The position numbers and the translations under genes were made by a program. This document shows, piece after piece, positions 19,492-26,819 of a DNA stretch of 64,000 nucleotides. The number at the start of each line of letters is the position of its first letter. Position 1 is the first letter of the stretch. The stretch is from positions 372,001 to 436,000 of the forward strand of contig NZ_FNRO01000002.1 in NCBI RefSeq assembly GCF_900107745.1, read 5' to 3'. This DNA is from Variovorax sp. YR216. GTDB lineage: Bacteria > Pseudomonadota > Gammaproteobacteria > Burkholderiales > Burkholderiaceae_C. A model generated the notes under the pieces. It worked only from the letters and a program-made list of their open reading frames with translations, did not search any database and was not told the origin of the DNA.

Positions 19492-20637
19492 ATGGCTGAG
19501 GAAAGCGATCTCGAAAAAACGGAACCTGCCTCTGCGCGGCGCCTGGAGAAGGCGCGCGAAGAAGGCAACGTCGCCCGGTCCCGCGAGCTGACCACGCTGG
19601 TCATGCTGGGCACCGCCATTGGCGGCCTGTGGTTCTCGGCGGCGTCGCTCGGCGGCACCATGGAACATGCGCTGCGCAAGGGCCTGCGCTTCGAACGCGA
19701 CTCGGCGTTCGATCCGTCGCAGATGATGGTCCAGGCCGGTTCGATGGTGCTGCACGCGCTCATGGCGATTGCACCGCTGTTCGTGATGATGGTGGTGGCC
19801 GCGGTGGTCGCGCCGATGATGCTCGGCGGCTGGCTGTTCTCGGGCAAGGCGGTGTCGCCGGACTTCGGCAAGCTCAACCCGGTCGCCGGCATCGCGCGGA
19901 TGTTCTCGGCGCAATCGCTCGTCGAACTCGTCAAGGCGCTGTCGAAGTCGGCGCTGATCGGCGGCGTCGCCTGGCTGGTGATCGCACGCGATCTCGACGG
20001 CGTGATGCAGCTCATGACGCTGCCGGTGAGCGCCGCGATTCCGCAGACCATCATGATCGTCGCGCGCGACTGTGCGCTGATCGCTGCCGCGCTGCTGGTG
20101 GTGGCGATGATCGACGTCCCCTGGCAGCTCTTCAGCTACTACCGCAAGCTGCGCATGTCGCGCGAGGACCTGCGCCAGGAGCACAAGGAAAGCGAAGGCG
20201 ATCCGCAGATCAAGGCGCAGATCCGTCGCCAGCAGCAGGCGATCGCACGTCGCCGGATGATGTCCGAGGTGCCGAAGGCCGACATCGTCGTCACGAACCC
20301 GACGCACTTCGCGGTGGCCCTCAAGTACGTCGACGGCGACATGCGCGCTCCGCGCGTGGTCGCCAAGGGCACCGACCTGATCGCACAGCGCATCCGCGAA
20401 CTCGCGGTGGCGCACAAGGTGGCGGTGCTCGAGGCGCCGCCGCTCACGCGGGCGCTCTACAAGCACGCGCGGCTGGGTGACGAGATCCCGTCCGGCCTCT
20501 ACACCGCGGTCGCCGAAGTGCTCGCCTGGGTCTACCAGCTCAAACGCTGGAAGAACGAGGGCATCGGCGATGCGCCACGCACACCAACCGACCTGCCGAT
20601 TCCCGAGGCGCTCGCCTACACACCGAAGACCGCATGA
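19492..20637 (+). CDS. flhB: Flagellar export gate protein FlhB
   Basis: FlhB is an inner-membrane export-gate component that switches substrate class after cleaving itself. The 381-residue product has the N-terminal SDLEKTEPASARRLEKAREE, four membrane segments between about 32 and 215, and the autocleavage motif NPTH (in VVTNPTHFAVALKY). A C-terminal domain is followed by a Pro-rich tail. The stop overlaps flhA (ATGA). A short hairpin (AAGGGG/CCCCTT, 19390-19410) lies in the 119-base gap after cheZ. Confidence 0.97.
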   Translation: MAEESDLEKTEPASARRLEKAREEGNVARSRELTTLVMLGTAIGGLWFSAASLGGTMEHALRKGLRFERDSAFDPSQMMVQAGSMVLHALMAIAPLFVMMVVAAVVAPMMLGGWLFSGKAVSPDFGKLNPVAGIARMFSAQSLVELVKALSKSALIGGVAWLVIARDLDGVMQLMTLPVSAAIPQTIMIVARDCALIAAALLVVAMIDVPWQLFSYYRKLRMSREDLRQEHKESEGDPQIKAQIRRQQQAIARRRMMSEVPKADIVVTNPTHFAVALKYVDGDMRAPRVVAKGTDLIAQRIRELAVAHKVAVLEAPPLTRALYKHARLGDEIPSGLYTAVAEVLAWVYQLKRWKNEGIGDAPRTPTDLPIPEALAYTPKTA

Positions 20638-22727
20638 ATTCCATGGCCAGCTTGATGCGTCTACCGACGCAAATGTTCTCCGGCAACCAGTTCAAGGGGC
20701 TGGCGGGGCCGATCCTCATCATCCTCATCCTGAGCATGATGGTGCTGCCGCTGCCGCCCTTCCTGCTCGACCTGCTGTTCACCTTCAACATCGCGATGTC
20801 GGTGATGGTGCTGCTGGTGAGCATGTACACGATGAAGGCGCTGGATTTCGCGGCCTTCCCGGCGGTGCTGCTGTTCTCGACGCTGCTGCGCCTGTCGCTC
20901 AACGTCGCATCCACGCGCGTGGTGCTGATGCACGGTCATACCGGGCCCGACGCGGCGGGCAAGGTGATCGAGGCCTTCGGGCACTTCCTCGTGGGCGGCA
21001 ACTTCGCGGTCGGCGTGATGGTGTTCATCATCCTCGTGATCATCAACTTCATGGTGATCACCAAGGGCGCGGGCCGGATCGCCGAGGTCGGCGCGCGCTT
21101 CATGCTCGACGCGATGCCCGGCAAGCAGATGGCGATCGACGCCGACCTCAACGCGGGCCTCATCGGCGAGGACGTCGCCCGCAAGCGCCGCACGGAAGTC
21201 GCGCAGGAGGCCGACTTCTACGGCTCGATGGACGGTGCCAGCAAGTTCGTGCGCGGCGACGCGGTTGCCGGCCTCATGATCATGGTCATCAACATCATCG
21301 GCGGCCTGGTGGTCGGCGTGGTGCAGCATGGACTGGACTTCTCGACCGCCGGCACGACCTACACGCTGCTGGCGATCGGCGACGGCCTGGTCGCGCAGAT
21401 CCCGGCGCTGGTGATCTCGACCGCGGCCGGCGTGATCGTGTCGCGCGTGACGACCGAAGAAGACGTGGGCCGCCAGCTCACCGGGCAGCTGTTCTCGAAC
21501 CCGCAGGTGCTGTTCCTCACGGCCGGCATCATCGGCCTGATGGGGATGATCCCCGGCATGCCGAACCTGGCCTTCCTGCTGATCGCGGGGGCGCTGGCCT
21601 GGGGCGGCCGTGCGCTGTTGCGCCGCAAGCCGCGCGCCGCGGCGGCGCAGGCCACGGCCACGCAGGTGTCGCAGGTGCCGGCGGCTGAGGCGACCGAAGC
21701 CAGCTGGGACGATGTCGCGATGGTCGACCCGCTCGGCATGGAAGTCGGCTACCGCCTGATCCCGCTGGTGGACCAGTCGCAGCAGGGCGAGCTGCTGGGC
21801 CGCATCAAGAGCATCCGCAAGAAGATCGCGCAGGAGATCGGCTTCCTGGTGCCGGTGGTGCACATCCGCGACAACCTGGAGATCAAGCCCAACAGCTACG
21901 TCATCAGCCTCAAGGGCGTGGAGATCGGCCGCGGCGAAGCCTTCCCGAACCAGTGGATGGCGATCAACCCGGGGCAGGTCACCGGCAGTCTGCCCGGCAC
22001 GCCGACGACGGACCCGGCCTTCGGCCTGCCGGCGGTGTGGATCGACGGCAGCCTGCGCCAGCAGGCGCAGATCTACGGCTACACCGTGGTCGATGCGTGC
22101 ACCGTGATGGCGACGCACCTGAACCACCTGATCCAGACGCACGCGGCGGAACTGCTCGGCCGGCAGGAAGTGCAGCAGCTGCTCGACCAGATCACCAAGA
22201 CCGAGCCGAAGCTCACCGAAGACCTCGTGCCCAAGGTCGTGTCGCTCAGCACGCTGCACAAGGTGCTGCAGAACCTGCTCGACGAGGAAGTCTCGATCCG
22301 CGACATGCGCACCATCCTCGACGTCATTGCCGAGCATGCGCCCACGACCAAGGATGCGACCGAGCTCACGTCGATGGTGCGCCTCGCACTGGGCCGGGCG
22401 ATCACGCAGCAGCTGTTCCCGGGCGATGCCGAACTGCACGTGATCGGCCTCGATGCGTCGCTCGATGCCGTCCTGCAGCAGGCCATGACCAGCAGCAGCG
22501 GCATCGAACCCGGCCTTGCCGACAACCTGCTGCGCCAGACGCAGGCGGCCATCACGCGGCAGGAGCAGATCGGCCTGGCGCCGGTGCTCGTGGTGCAGCA
22601 CTCGCTGCGCGTGCTGCTCGCGCGCTTCCTGCGGCGCAGCCTGCCTCAACTGAAGGTGCTCTCCCACGCGGAGATCCCTGACACCCGCAACATCAAGATC
22701 ACCGCCACCATTGGAGGAAGAGCGTGA
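20634..22727 (+). CDS. flhA: Flagellar export gate protein FlhA
   Basis: FlhA forms the nonameric export-gate ring. The 697-residue product has about eight membrane segments in the first half. The conserved FHIPEP-type cytoplasmic loop contains ARFMLDAMPGKQMAIDADLN and RKRRTEVAQEADFYGSMDGA. The large cytoplasmic domain holds IGFLVPVVHIRDNLEIKPN and binds substrate-chaperone complexes. It starts inside the flhB stop and ends inside the flhF start. Confidence 0.97.
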   Translation: MNSMASLMRLPTQMFSGNQFKGLAGPILIILILSMMVLPLPPFLLDLLFTFNIAMSVMVLLVSMYTMKALDFAAFPAVLLFSTLLRLSLNVASTRVVLMHGHTGPDAAGKVIEAFGHFLVGGNFAVGVMVFIILVIINFMVITKGAGRIAEVGARFMLDAMPGKQMAIDADLNAGLIGEDVARKRRTEVAQEADFYGSMDGASKFVRGDAVAGLMIMVINIIGGLVVGVVQHGLDFSTAGTTYTLLAIGDGLVAQIPALVISTAAGVIVSRVTTEEDVGRQLTGQLFSNPQVLFLTAGIIGLMGMIPGMPNLAFLLIAGALAWGGRALLRRKPRAAAAQATATQVSQVPAAEATEASWDDVAMVDPLGMEVGYRLIPLVDQSQQGELLGRIKSIRKKIAQEIGFLVPVVHIRDNLEIKPNSYVISLKGVEIGRGEAFPNQWMAINPGQVTGSLPGTPTTDPAFGLPAVWIDGSLRQQAQIYGYTVVDACTVMATHLNHLIQTHAAELLGRQEVQQLLDQITKTEPKLTEDLVPKVVSLSTLHKVLQNLLDEEVSIRDMRTILDVIAEHAPTTKDATELTSMVRLALGRAITQQLFPGDAELHVIGLDASLDAVLQQAMTSSSGIEPGLADNLLRQTQAAITRQEQIGLAPVLVVQHSLRVLLARFLRRSLPQLKVLSHAEIPDTRNIKITATIGGRA

Positions 22728-25225
22728 GTATCCCGACAGACGTGCGGACCACGGCCCGCAGATTCTTTGCCGCAACCAGCCGCGAGGCGCTGCGCCTGGT
22801 GCGCGAGGCCCTCGGCGCGGAGGCCATCGTCCTCAGCAACCGCGCATCGGCCGAAGGGGTCGAGATCGTGGCCATGCTGGAGAGCGATGTCACGCAGGCG
22901 CTGCAGAGCGCCGCGCCGATGGAGCCGGTGAGCGCGCCTGCGCCGGTCGTGCCGGCTCGGGTCGTCGCGCCCGCGGTGGCTGCCGAGCCCCCGGCGCCCG
23001 TTGCACCTGTCGCCGCCGCCATTCCGGCGCCGGCACCGGTCGTTGCGGCCCCCGCGGCTCAGGCGAGGCCCGAGCCGCAACCCGCCGCGGCGCAAACCGA
23101 CGTGGTGCTGAGCGAACTCCACTCGATGCGCGGCATGATCGAGGAACAGCTCGCCAGCGTCGTGTGGAACGACAAGCAGCGACAGGACCCGGTGCGCGGC
23201 CGCCTGCTGCGCACGCTGCTCGGCGCAGGCTTCAGCGCGCGTCTTTCGAAGGCGCTGCTCGAAAAGCTGCCCACCGGCCAGACCTACGCACAGGGCATGG
23301 CCTTCGCGCGCTCGGAGCTGATCCGCGCGCTGCCGGTGCATGAGGACGAGGACGCGCTGCTGTCGCAGGGTGGCGTCTATGCGCTCATGGGGCCGACCGG
23401 CGTCGGCAAGACGACGACCACCGCGAAGCTCGCCGCGCGCTGCGTGATGCGCTTCGGCGCCGACAAGCTCGCGCTGGTGACCACCGACAGCTACCGGATC
23501 GGCGCCTACGAGCAATTGCGCATCTACGGCCAGATCCTCGACGTGCCGGTGTACGGCGTGAAGGACGCGGCTGACCTGCACCTGGTGCTGCAGGACCTGC
23601 GCGACAAGCACATGGTGCTGATCGACACCGTCGGCATGAGCCAGCGCGATCGCGCGGTGTCGGACCAGATCGCGATGCTGTGCAGCACCCACCGGCCGGT
23701 GAAGCGGCTGCTGCTGCTCAACGCGACCAGCCACGGCGACACGCTCAACGAAGTGGTCCATGCCTATCGCCATGGCGGCGGCAACGAGCTCGCGGGCTGC
23801 ATCTTCACGAAGATGGACGAGTCCACGCACCCGGGCGCGCTGATCGACACCGTGATCCGCCACCGCCTGCCGGTGCACTACATCTCCAGCGGGCAGAAGG
23901 TGCCCGAGAACCTGATGCCCGCCGATCGCGCGCAGCTGGTGGACAGCGTCTTCCAGCCGCGGCGCCACAACGCGCTGTTCGTGCCGAGCGAAGTCGAGAT
24001 GCAGGACGAGCCGGCGGGCACCGCGCCGTCCGCGCAAGTGGTGCAGGCGCAGGCCGAGACCGACCGTCTGCGCACGCAGTACCAGAACCTCATCCGCGCG
24101 ATGGCGCACGACGCGCAGGAACTCGCGACCGCCGCCGGCGCGCTCGCCGGAGCGCAGATCGGCTTCGAAGCGGCGCGGCGGTTCTGGCGCCATGCGGGCG
24201 ACGAAGGTATCAGCCAGAAAGCGGTGCAGGACGACCTGATGGTGCACGCCCGCAGCGAGATCGCCGTGGGTTGCGACAGCCATGTGCTCGCGTTGTCGGG
24301 GCAGGTGAGCCTGCGCTCGAACGCCGGGGACGATGTCTACGAGTGCCAGAGCAGCCTGCTCCTGTCCGACCGCAGCGGGCAGCCGCTGTCGGCGCCGAAC
24401 CAGTGGCTGTCCACCGCGGCGACGCGCGGCAGCGATGCGCGCCGCAAGCCGGGCGCGCGCCAGGTGCAGTGGCTGCGCCAGCAAGTTCTGGGCAAGCCGG
24501 TGGTGCACCTGCTGCCGAGGTTGCCTGCAGTCGAACTGATGGCCGAGTGGCAGTCGCAGAACCAGCAATGGCTGGCCCGCGTGCCCGGCTCCACCAGCGT
24601 GATTGAGCTGCGTACCGGCGAGTCGAGCGCGCTGGCGCGCATCGACGCCGAATTCAGCGAGCCGGTGCCGACCGTCTTCAAGGGCAAGCCGGCGATGCAA
24701 TGCGAGGCCCACGCGATGGTCCAGCTGCGCGTCAGTGCCGACAAGCCCGCGCTGCCGCCGCTGCGCGGCGTGGTGCGGCGCGTGCTCGATGAGCGGGGCC
24801 AGAAGATCCTCGCGCAGACCTGCCTGCTGTCGAACGTGGACATGCGCGTCACTGCGCGCCAGCTCGCGCAGTGGCAGGCCTGGGCAGCCGACGCGGAGCC
24901 GTGCTTCCGCCTCATCCGCCAGGGCCTGCAACTTGCGGGCGGCATGGGCGAGCTGGGCGATCCGGACATGCTCAAGCGTCTGCTGATCGCGGGCCAGGTG
25001 ACCACCACCGCGTGGCGCCTGCTGCACGCCAGGGGCGAGTGGGCGGACCGTGCGCGCGTGCTGCTCAACGAGTTGACGGGGCGCCCCGCCAAGTCGACCC
25101 GGCCGCTCACCGGCAACGCGCTGTACCTGGGCGTGAGCAAGCTCTTCGTGTTGCTGGAAGCGCTAGGCACCGAGTCGACCGCGCCGATGCAGCCGCAACT
25201 GCGCGCCATGGAAAAGCAGGCTTGA
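22724..25225 (+). CDS. flhF: FlhF GTPase with transposase-like C-terminal extension
   Basis: FlhF is an SRP-type GTPase that helps place polar flagella. The 833-residue product has an N-terminal B domain (1-65) and an Ala/Pro linker (66-125). The NG domain to about 412 has P-loop GPTGVGKTTTTAKLA at 223-237, TTDSYRIGAYEQL, and LIDTVGMSQRDR. Typical FlhF ends there. Here another 400 residues follow in frame. Residues about 460-770 resemble a Tn5/IS4-type transposase by eye: ARRFW followed by a helix; SSLLLSDRSGQPLSAPNQW; and AEPCFRLIRQGLQLAGG then TTAWRLLHAR. The catalytic Asp positions are lost (LALSGQV, LLPRLPA). The GTG start follows GGAGGAAG. Confidence 0.93.
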   Translation: MSIPTDVRTTARRFFAATSREALRLVREALGAEAIVLSNRASAEGVEIVAMLESDVTQALQSAAPMEPVSAPAPVVPARVVAPAVAAEPPAPVAPVAAAIPAPAPVVAAPAAQARPEPQPAAAQTDVVLSELHSMRGMIEEQLASVVWNDKQRQDPVRGRLLRTLLGAGFSARLSKALLEKLPTGQTYAQGMAFARSELIRALPVHEDEDALLSQGGVYALMGPTGVGKTTTTAKLAARCVMRFGADKLALVTTDSYRIGAYEQLRIYGQILDVPVYGVKDAADLHLVLQDLRDKHMVLIDTVGMSQRDRAVSDQIAMLCSTHRPVKRLLLLNATSHGDTLNEVVHAYRHGGGNELAGCIFTKMDESTHPGALIDTVIRHRLPVHYISSGQKVPENLMPADRAQLVDSVFQPRRHNALFVPSEVEMQDEPAGTAPSAQVVQAQAETDRLRTQYQNLIRAMAHDAQELATAAGALAGAQIGFEAARRFWRHAGDEGISQKAVQDDLMVHARSEIAVGCDSHVLALSGQVSLRSNAGDDVYECQSSLLLSDRSGQPLSAPNQWLSTAATRGSDARRKPGARQVQWLRQQVLGKPVVHLLPRLPAVELMAEWQSQNQQWLARVPGSTSVIELRTGESSALARIDAEFSEPVPTVFKGKPAMQCEAHAMVQLRVSADKPALPPLRGVVRRVLDERGQKILAQTCLLSNVDMRVTARQLAQWQAWAADAEPCFRLIRQGLQLAGGMGELGDPDMLKRLLIAGQVTTTAWRLLHARGEWADRARVLLNELTGRPAKSTRPLTGNALYLGVSKLFVLLEALGTESTAPMQPQLRAMEKQA

Positions 25226-25235
25226 GGAGCATCGC

Positions 25236-26048
25236 ATGAGCAAGCTGGTTGCGGATCAGGCGGACGGACTGCGCCGCCTCCTGGCGAACACGCCGACGCG
25301 CGTCATCGCGATCGCGGGCATGAGCCGCGGCGACGGCGGGACCACCACCGCGATGAATCTCGCGGCGGCGCTGGTGCATCAGGGCAAGGACGTCTCGCTG
25401 ATCGACGAGCAGGATCCGGATCGCGCCTCGGCCGGAGCGGCATGGGGCGTCGATGTGCCGGGCAGGGCGGCCGAATGCGGCGTGGAAGTGCTGCCGTCGC
25501 CGCATCCGTCGATCGATCCGAGGACGCTTCGCCGCAGTGGCGTGGTGCTGATCGATGCCGCACTCGACGACGAAGGCCGGCTGTCGCCGCTCGCGCAGCG
25601 TGCGGACGAACTGGTGCTGGTGCTGCAGCCGAGCGCCGCGTCGATCACGGCGGCCTATGCGGGCATCAAGCGCCTGCACTACGCGCACGGCCTGATGCAG
25701 ATCCGCTTCCTGGTCAACCGCGCATCGGGCATCGAAGAGGCGCAGAAGATCATGAGCAACCTCGCCAACACCGGCAGCCGCTATCTCGCGGTGTCGCTGG
25801 AGCCGGCGGGCTGGGTTCATGCCGATGCGCACCATGCCGATGCCCGGCGTCTCGGCCGTACGGTGGTGGAAGCGTTTCCGGCGAGCCCGGCCGCGGTGGA
25901 CTTCCGCCGCATCGCCGCCGACGTGCTGCGCTGGCCATGGCGCACACCCGCACGCACGGTGCGGTCGAACGACCATGCCATGAACGACAGCCGCATCGCG
26001 ATGTCTGCGCCGCGCGCACTCCACATGCCGAGCGCCGCCGTCGCCTGA
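25236..26048 (+). CDS. flhG: MinD-like flagellar number regulator FlhG (FleN)
   Basis: FlhG antagonises FlhF and limits flagellar number. The 270-residue product has the N-terminal activating motif DQADGLRRLL and a MinD/ParA-like fold with LIDEQD and VVLIDAAL. The deviant Walker A, normally KGGVGKT, reads SRGDGGTTT (30-38), so both lysines are absent. This suggests weak or lost ATPase activity, or a variant nucleotide mode. A 35-residue tail after about 235 is not conserved. The gene lies 10 bases after flhF and 36 before fliA. Confidence 0.9.
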   Translation: MSKLVADQADGLRRLLANTPTRVIAIAGMSRGDGGTTTAMNLAAALVHQGKDVSLIDEQDPDRASAGAAWGVDVPGRAAECGVEVLPSPHPSIDPRTLRRSGVVLIDAALDDEGRLSPLAQRADELVLVLQPSAASITAAYAGIKRLHYAHGLMQIRFLVNRASGIEEAQKIMSNLANTGSRYLAVSLEPAGWVHADAHHADARRLGRTVVEAFPASPAAVDFRRIAADVLRWPWRTPARTVRSNDHAMNDSRIAMSAPRALHMPSAAVA

Positions 26049-26084: not shown

Positions 26085-26819
26085 GTGTACACCGCCCAGG
26101 GAACCATCGAGAAGTCCCATCTGCTGGAGCAGCATCAGCCGCTGGTGCGCCGCATCGCGCTGCAGATGATCGCCAAGCTCCCCGCCAGCGTCGAACTCGA
26201 CGATCTGATCCAGGCCGGCATGATCGGCCTGCTGGATGCGTCGAGCCGCTACCAGGACAACAAGGGTGCGCAGTTCGAGACCTTCGTGAGCCAGCGCATT
26301 CGCGGCGCGATGCTCGACGAGCTGCGCTCCAGCGACTGGGGCTCGCGCGGCCTGCGCCAGTCGGCCCGCAGTGTGGAGAAGGCCATCCAGGTGCTCGAGC
26401 ATCGCCTGGGCCGTTCGCCCACCGAGGGCGAGATCGCCAAGGAGCTGAAGATGGAGCTGGAGGCCTACCAGTCCCTCCTGCAGGAGATCCAGGGCTGCCA
26501 GCTTCTGTACGTGGAGGACTTCGCAAAGGGCGAGGCCGAGAACCCGTTCATCGACCTGCATGCACAGGACGCGCGACGCAGCCAGCGCAGCAGCGACGAC
26601 CCGCTGGAGCAGTTGCTCGAAAGCGGCTTTCGCCATCAGCTGGTGGAAGCGATCCAGCAACTGCCCGAGCGCGACCAGCTGCTGCTGAACCTGTACTACG
26701 AGGAGGAGCTGAACCTGCGCGAGATCGGCGCGATCCTCGAAGTGAGCCAGAGCCGCGTGTGCCAGCTTCACAGCCAGGCGATCAGCCGGCTGCGGGCCCG
26801 TCTGAAAGAGCTGCTGTAG
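26085..26819 (+). CDS. fliA: RNA polymerase sigma factor FliA (sigma-28)
   Basis: FliA directs late flagellar genes such as fliC and the che operon. The 244-residue product has sigma region 2 (HQPLVRRIALQMIAKLP, ASVELDDLIQAGMIGLLDA), region 3 (LGRSPTEGEIAKELKM) and region 4 (LNLREIGAILEVSQSRVCQL). The GTG at 26085 follows AAGGA. It ends the flhB-flhA-flhF-flhG-fliA run. No flgM is in the window. It converges on the ribbon-helix-helix gene with only 12 bases between. Confidence 0.97.
   Translation: MYTAQGTIEKSHLLEQHQPLVRRIALQMIAKLPASVELDDLIQAGMIGLLDASSRYQDNKGAQFETFVSQRIRGAMLDELRSSDWGSRGLRQSARSVEKAIQVLEHRLGRSPTEGEIAKELKMELEAYQSLLQEIQGCQLLYVEDFAKGEAENPFIDLHAQDARRSQRSSDDPLEQLLESGFRHQLVEAIQQLPERDQLLLNLYYEEELNLREIGAILEVSQSRVCQLHSQAISRLRARLKELL

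Follow-up and report, generated by a model that had tools for sequence, protein, structure and literature searches.

A long form of FlhF whose C-terminal extension almost certainly descends from an IS4/Tn5-type transposase

We report here that a long form of FlhF, encoded in the window (the whole 64,000-nt stretch of Variovorax sp. YR216 DNA analysed), almost certainly carries at residues ~437-820 a catalytically dead domain of IS4/Tn5-type transposase identity and origin. This transposase, captured long ago, has been retained by selection and may now act as a dimerisation or docking module of FlhF. Domesticated transposases are well known in eukaryotes; in this case a protein of mobile DNA seems to have been put to new use in the flagellum machinery, as part of a bacterial protein that organises the cell, giving an example of a transposase turned structural domain. 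The initial annotation had considered such a fusion new. Its transposase origin was indeed not found in the literature searched, but the architecture is not new, since long FlhF is already catalogued as NCBIfam NF011312/PRK14723. The identity of the extension accounts for the half of this family that its name leaves undescribed. No description of a transposase domain in FlhF was found by title or abstract start, subscription papers lying outside the search; the term 'PRK14723' was not found in the literature searched, nor the word 'transposase' in the part of PMC12826062 available to us.

The long flhF gene and its locus

FlhF had been read as running on in frame to residue 833, and indeed a single uninterrupted ORF with a GTG start encodes the whole protein. 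The features of the locus are as follows.

20634..22727, + strand: ORF upstream of flhF, which from its sequence we take to be flhA; gene order as in C. metallidurans CH34 (L098)
22724..25225, + strand: flhF, long form, 833 aa, with a 4-nt overlap with the end of flhA and a match to NF011312/PRK14723
23339..23983, + strand: SRP-type GTPase core, set here at residues 206-420 (PF00448), with GPTGVGKTT, DTVG and TKMD, taken by us as the SRP-type GTPase motifs
24032..25222, + strand: C-terminal extension, residues 437-833, the catalytically dead IS4/Tn5-type transposase domain (structure and sequence)
24299..24301, + strand: codon of Gly526, which lines up with the first catalytic Asp (alignment)
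24515..24517, + strand: codon of Pro598, which lines up with the second catalytic Asp, the DREAD motif having become PRLPA (alignment)
24875..24919, + strand: degenerate Y(2)R(3)E(6)K motif, Gln718, Ala721, Glu725 and Arg732 (alignment)
25236..26048, + strand: flhG, downstream of flhF, MinD-like, with a DQAxxLR motif (motif and gene order)
26085..26819, + strand: downstream ORF, presumably fliA from its sequence and gene order

The order flhB-flhA-flhF-flhG-fliA is the same in the window and in Cupriavidus metallidurans CH34, and from the order flhA-flhF-flhG-fliA the window FlhF is predicted to control flagellar placement or number. Profile matches identify the first ~420 residues as FlhF: the NCBIfam FlhF model TIGR03499 covers residues 12-304 with 263.9 bits (cut-off 174.15), and the Pfam SRP54 GTPase model (PF00448) covers residues 218-410 with 125.1 bits. 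NF011312/PRK14723 (768 positions) has the architecture of the window protein and aligns over nearly all of it (residues 11-815 to model positions 3-767), with 900.6 bits, below its curated cut-off of 951; this cut-off was exceeded by one of the 299 family genomes and also by L077, a copy from another family (1125.2 bits). The name of the model is silent on the C-terminal half being a transposase, yet that half matches transposases, as described below.

Ordinary FlhF (TIGR03499, B-NG architecture) has the N-terminal part and GTPase core in common with the window protein but stops 18-33 aa past the core, whereas the window protein continues into the extension; in the parts of PMC12826062 and PMC12713375 that we could consult, only B, N and G domains are described. 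The length survey that had been proposed revealed two classes, with a tail beyond the GTPase core of 378-438 aa in 34 long FlhF and of 18-33 aa in 26 of the 27 short ones. In the remaining short form (L045) the core was mis-picked, so that its tail length is unusable and it is absent from the core tree. The extension is not an assembly accident, since it is also present in 20 of the 24 other genomes of the window's genus and in other families. At several loci of the same genus (L010, L014 and L017 among them) it is ~17 residues shorter and ends directly after EALGT/EALDT.

Fold and relatives of the extension

An AlphaFold2 model of residues 437-833, built from 22 aligned copies, reached a pLDDT of 84.5 and a pTM of 0.81. 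Searched against the PDB with Foldseek, it gave 920 matches, of which the six at E <= 0.001 were all Tn5 (IS50) transposase or its inhibitor (1muh, 1mm8, 1mus, 3ecp, 4dm0 and 1b7e), the best at 4.9e-14. VIA-align scored these six at Z 20.7-22.1 (1b7e: Z 22.1, 301 residues aligned, rmsd 4.1), the next fold being piggyBac at 10.8. Residues 4-465 of 1mus_A aligned to model positions 42-380, with the N-terminal helices falling at the Tn5 N-terminal domain, and the structural match ends at about residue 817. A second model, of L077 (25-29% identical to the other rows), was weaker (pLDDT 72.2), and again the same six entries were the sole Foldseek matches at E <= 0.001, with VIA-align Z of 12.9-15.8 against 8.4 for the next fold. 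The two models are not wholly independent, as they have alignment rows in common. Nevertheless, a Tn5-type RNase-H-like fold with a beta insertion and C-terminal helices is present in both predicted models, as the initial annotation had anticipated. Fold and element order follow Tn5 from the N-terminal domain through to the C-terminal helices; unlike Tn5, with which it is 12-13% identical in the VIA alignment, the extension has lost the catalytic triad, is fused to a GTPase and lacks recognised transposon ends.

Sequence comparison connects the extension to transposases through both FlhF profiles and pairwise searches. A profile built from 15 FlhF extensions only (A7) scored 131.4-196.4 bits on all eight IS-group transposases tested, proteins found, and so selected, by their similarity to FlhF extensions or to the L092 transposase. 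On the same eight and ten Tn5-like transposases (18 proteins), 60 column-shuffled A7 profiles reached at best 8.5 bits, a control for composition and not for that selection; on the ten Tn5-like transposases the best A7 score was 17.4 bits. BLASTP of the window extension against the L092 transposase gave 2e-13 (26% identity over 292 columns). In a tblastn search of 72,556 plasmid records 11 matched; in nine the matching region is annotated as a transposase (best 4e-11), and the other two are Cupriavidus FlhF (about 1e-6). The C-terminal half of the PRK14723 model itself matches four IS-group transposases (8.5e-32, 1.3e-37, 3.2e-32 and 1.3e-23), and this cross-match between an FlhF model and IS4-type transposases calls for caution in annotation. 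Residues common to the FlhF and IS copies include W488, G552, W717, L781 and G786.

The direct path to Tn5 is fainter. Pfam scans found nothing transposase-like in the window extension and six unrelated weak families only among 22 extension members; nor did any unrelated FlhF domain match the extension in the libraries scanned (Pfam and NCBIfam). Searching PDB sequences directly with the extension returned nothing related, Tn5 included. As there is no direct sequence match between the extension and Tn5, the Tn5 link runs via the IS group, whose L092 transposase matches PDB Tn5 at 2.7e-6, and via structure. With hhalign, columns 51-382 of the 414 in the extension profile were collinear with 50-446 of the 461 in Tn5-like transposases. 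Against six Tn5-like transposases the match was weak (probability 6.2%, P 0.006); against ten it scored 37.3 over 319 columns (program's own probability 28.6%), compared with a mean of 15.7 (sd 2.7, maximum 24.4) for 150 column shuffles and 15.0 for the reversed profile. The Tn5 core proposed by eye at residues 460-770 is thus borne out as a collinear homology, but its extent was too narrow, the domain really covering about 437-820.

Could this be an RNase-H-like fold arrived at by chance or convergence? Such folds are widespread, and many Argonaute and EndoV rows appeared at Z 6-8. We nonetheless regard this reading as having next to no chance of being right: Z is 22.1 while no other family exceeds 10.8, profile scores are 131-196 bits against at most 8.5 for shuffled profiles, and the alignment is collinear over most of its length. 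It was ruled out by the hhalign shuffle test, the plasmid tblastn and the column-shuffled profiles. The extension is therefore homologous to transposases.

Its closest sequence relatives are an IS4-type group (L092, L099, L100, L101, L103 and L109) that stands beside the FlhF extensions on a Tn5-rooted tree; these transposases are free-standing, unlike the FlhF-fused extension. The order-wide search recovered L092 as an open 441-aa transposase (1.3e-39 with the extension profile) that carries HDWS, DREAD and YYYRWQIESMFKLLK. It is flanked by 31-bp inverted repeats (94% complementary), and because L092 lies between inverted repeats the group can be regarded as mobile in kind. The final 149 nt of L092 also stand at the start of two other stretches of the same genome, a sign that it may be present more than once. 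Among the IS-group rows the second Asp and the Y, R, E and K are present in five of five and the first Asp in three (it is N in L101 and lies outside the L099 ORF). The Pfam DDE_Tnp_1 cut-off was passed by five of the six IS-group proteins scanned, L092 falling just short (21.6 versus 23), and the NCBIfam transpos_IS4_3 cut-off was not reached by the four scanned (L092, L099, L100 and L109). Two further loci, L111 (with internal stops) and L112, match the profile and were not among the IS rows scanned as transposases. As a side observation, L092:1086-2491 is a compact IS of about 1.4 kb, in an IS4-type group that lies below the NCBIfam IS4 cut-offs.

Active site, selection and possible roles

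As first annotated, both catalytic Asp are replaced in the window protein (by Gly526 and Pro598 in the alignment), Glu725 is kept and the Lys has become Arg732; neither D-D-E nor Y-R-E-K is complete. Retention of the Glu is true of the window protein but not clade-wide. Across 34 FlhF copies the Glu position holds E in 26, D in four, K in three and Q in one, and the first Asp position holds G in 28, S in three and H, A and Q in one each. The second Asp is present in three copies, the R and the K of YREK are each kept in two, and full DDE occurs in none. Both Asp are found in all ten Tn5-like rows and the Glu in nine. No convincing terminal inverted repeats were found around the extension: there were 18 weak pairs within 23700-25500, and the longest pair, of 28 nt with 71% complementarity (23837-23864 and 25247-25274), encloses the extension but sits inside GTPase and flhG coding sequence, compared with the 31 nt and 94% of L092. 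The kept Glu725 and the second Asp of three copies might be taken to hint at a nuclease or transposase still active through alternative residues. This is highly improbable, with the first Asp gone from every one of the 34 copies, full DDE found in none, the Glu replaced in eight and convincing terminal repeats lacking. The active site of the transposase has been lost.

The extension is, however, under purifying selection. Its dN/dS was 0.05-0.31 in 17 of 17 pairs, and it is therefore maintained by selection; the GTPase core gave 0-0.11, and since the extension exceeded the core in 16 of the 17 pairs, constraint on it is moderate. Twelve residues show no variation in a set of 15 rows that includes seven with only 22-27% identity to the window copy. 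These data bear on the view of the extension as a passenger, a decaying and functionless relic kept because its loss would disturb downstream flhG translation. The flhF stop (25225) is indeed close to the flhG start (25236) in the window, and the faster evolution of the extension relative to the core would fit decay. Against it stand the dN/dS range of every pair, the invariant residues, a frame open to the extension's end in all 34 long ORFs used and a fold that persists in L077 despite its divergence, so that we consider a passenger quite improbable.

What, then, might the domain do? We give about an even chance to a role as a non-catalytic structural module acting in FlhF self-association or partner docking. 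Such a module would promote self-association of FlhF, or dock to FlhG, a polar landmark or the C-ring, and would thereby tune where and how many flagella are built. In Tn5 the C-terminal helices are a dimerisation region; in the diverse set A7 the corresponding helices are not clearly better conserved than other parts of the extension (0.40 versus 0.29-0.41). A dimerisation or docking module is favoured because FlhF, according to the part of PMC12826062 available to us, functions as a homodimer dependent on GTP, tethering the nascent flagellum.

Alternatively, the domain could be a remnant that would still bind DNA without catalysis and so anchor FlhF, or the site of polar assembly, on the chromosome. 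In favour of this, the fold has survived together with N-terminal helices that align with the Tn5 N-terminal domain, and some copies have a mild positive net charge (+7 in the window copy). However, in the 14 of 34 FlhF rows and 15 transposases for which charge and lysines were counted, lysines number 2-12 in the FlhF copies against 15-42 in the transposases. Net charge runs from +9 to -7 in the former, with four Cupriavidus-type copies at -7 to -2, and from +20 to -3 in the latter. Charge alone is a weak argument, because a net negative charge (-3 to -1) is also seen in four of the 15 transposases. The rarity of the YREK R and K also speaks against binding. Overall, the sequences mildly disfavour a DNA-binding role, and we judge it unlikely.

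Returning to the module reading, a bolder version would make the dead transposase a permanent half of FlhF, serving in oligomerisation or docking and replacing part of the usual ATP-switch control exerted by FlhG; if true, these bacteria would set the number and placement of their flagella through a domain of mobile-element origin. The P-loop of MinD-like proteins bears a lysine. The window FlhG keeps the activator motif DQAxxLR and has GMSRGDGGTTTAM at the MinD-type P-loop place. FlhG was found at 31 of the 34 long-form loci and 11 of the 27 short-form loci; GK[ST] within 80 aa of DQAxxLR is absent in the 31 rows beside long FlhF and likewise in the 11 beside short FlhF. A tie between FlhG Walker-A loss and the extension was rejected, as the motif is also missing beside short FlhF; the same absence weakens the proposed link to FlhG control, and we consider this bolder version unlikely.

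Distribution and descent

The extension occurs in Variovorax, Cupriavidus, other Burkholderiales and one further gammaproteobacterial family. Because the genome profile searches scored few candidates per genome, the following counts are lower bounds. Besides the 20 of 24 genomes of the window's genus mentioned above, two of three further genomes carry it. At the family level (299 genomes), the listed matches to the FlhF model at 1e-60 come from 215 genomes, and at least five, the window's included, match it full-length; a separate search of the 299 also gave five. The extension profile matched in 11 of 399 genomes of the order: eight long FlhF, the L092 transposase, a transposase C-terminal fragment (L096) and L097, taken as a chance match (E 0.009, 62-aa frame). 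Long FlhF is thus present in at least eight of the 399 (window's included), in families f1, f4, f8 and f19. In 369 genomes of the class, two more long FlhF were found, both in family f29 (L113 and L114), together with the window's own genome and four genomes with transposase-like matches. One copy, L095, was found by genome search and missed by local hmmsearch with a profile from the same alignment and default filters (tblastn 3e-16).

The carriers group together. When 60 FlhF cores were placed on a tree, a single branch (90/88, and 87% of bootstrap trees) set the 34 long forms apart, and nearest to them are 408-410-aa short FlhF of another genus. A second tree covered 39 rows of extensions and transposases, with the Tn5-like rows as root and ten near-identical same-genus rows left out. 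Here the 24 FlhF rows group at 100/99, and a branch with 100/100 separates them and the IS rows from the Tn5-like ones; for this tree the program warned that long branches meet and that seven rows have an unusual letter composition. On this tree the nearest relatives of the extension belong to one particular IS4-type IS group that stands apart from the Tn5 group proper, and both trees are consistent with one capture, followed by inheritance and some transfer. We infer a fusion route in which, in an ancestral proteobacterium, an IS of an IS4-type group related to Tn5 would have joined the 3' end of flhF in frame. Its catalytic residues would then have decayed, while the fold (N-terminal helices, RNase-H-like core with beta insertion, C-terminal helices) would have been kept as the second half of FlhF and passed on together with the flagellar operon.

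Named carriers are Variovorax, whose records have extensions 95% identical to that of the window, two C. metallidurans records including CH34, C. campinensis and Cupriavidus sp. EM10. C. metallidurans CH34 offers a tractable species for study, and the link between FlhF architecture and flagellation pattern becomes open to a direct deletion test; no usable paper on peritrichous flagellation of Variovorax as a correlate was found in the literature searched. L113 and L114, which stand outside the 34-row triad count and both trees, have a very divergent transposase-type extension and come from one gammaproteobacterial family outside the window's order. Five genomes of the window's genus are without the extension: two have an unrelated short FlhF instead (G001 and G014), two gave only weak matches of about 1e-11 (G021 and G255), and the fifth, G012, has a completeness of 62%. 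The extension is hence not indispensable for having FlhF, given G001 and G014. In the two genomes of the genus with an unrelated short FlhF (loci L082 and L083) the open frames are of 509 and 505 aa, which suggests replacement of the flagellar system within the genus.
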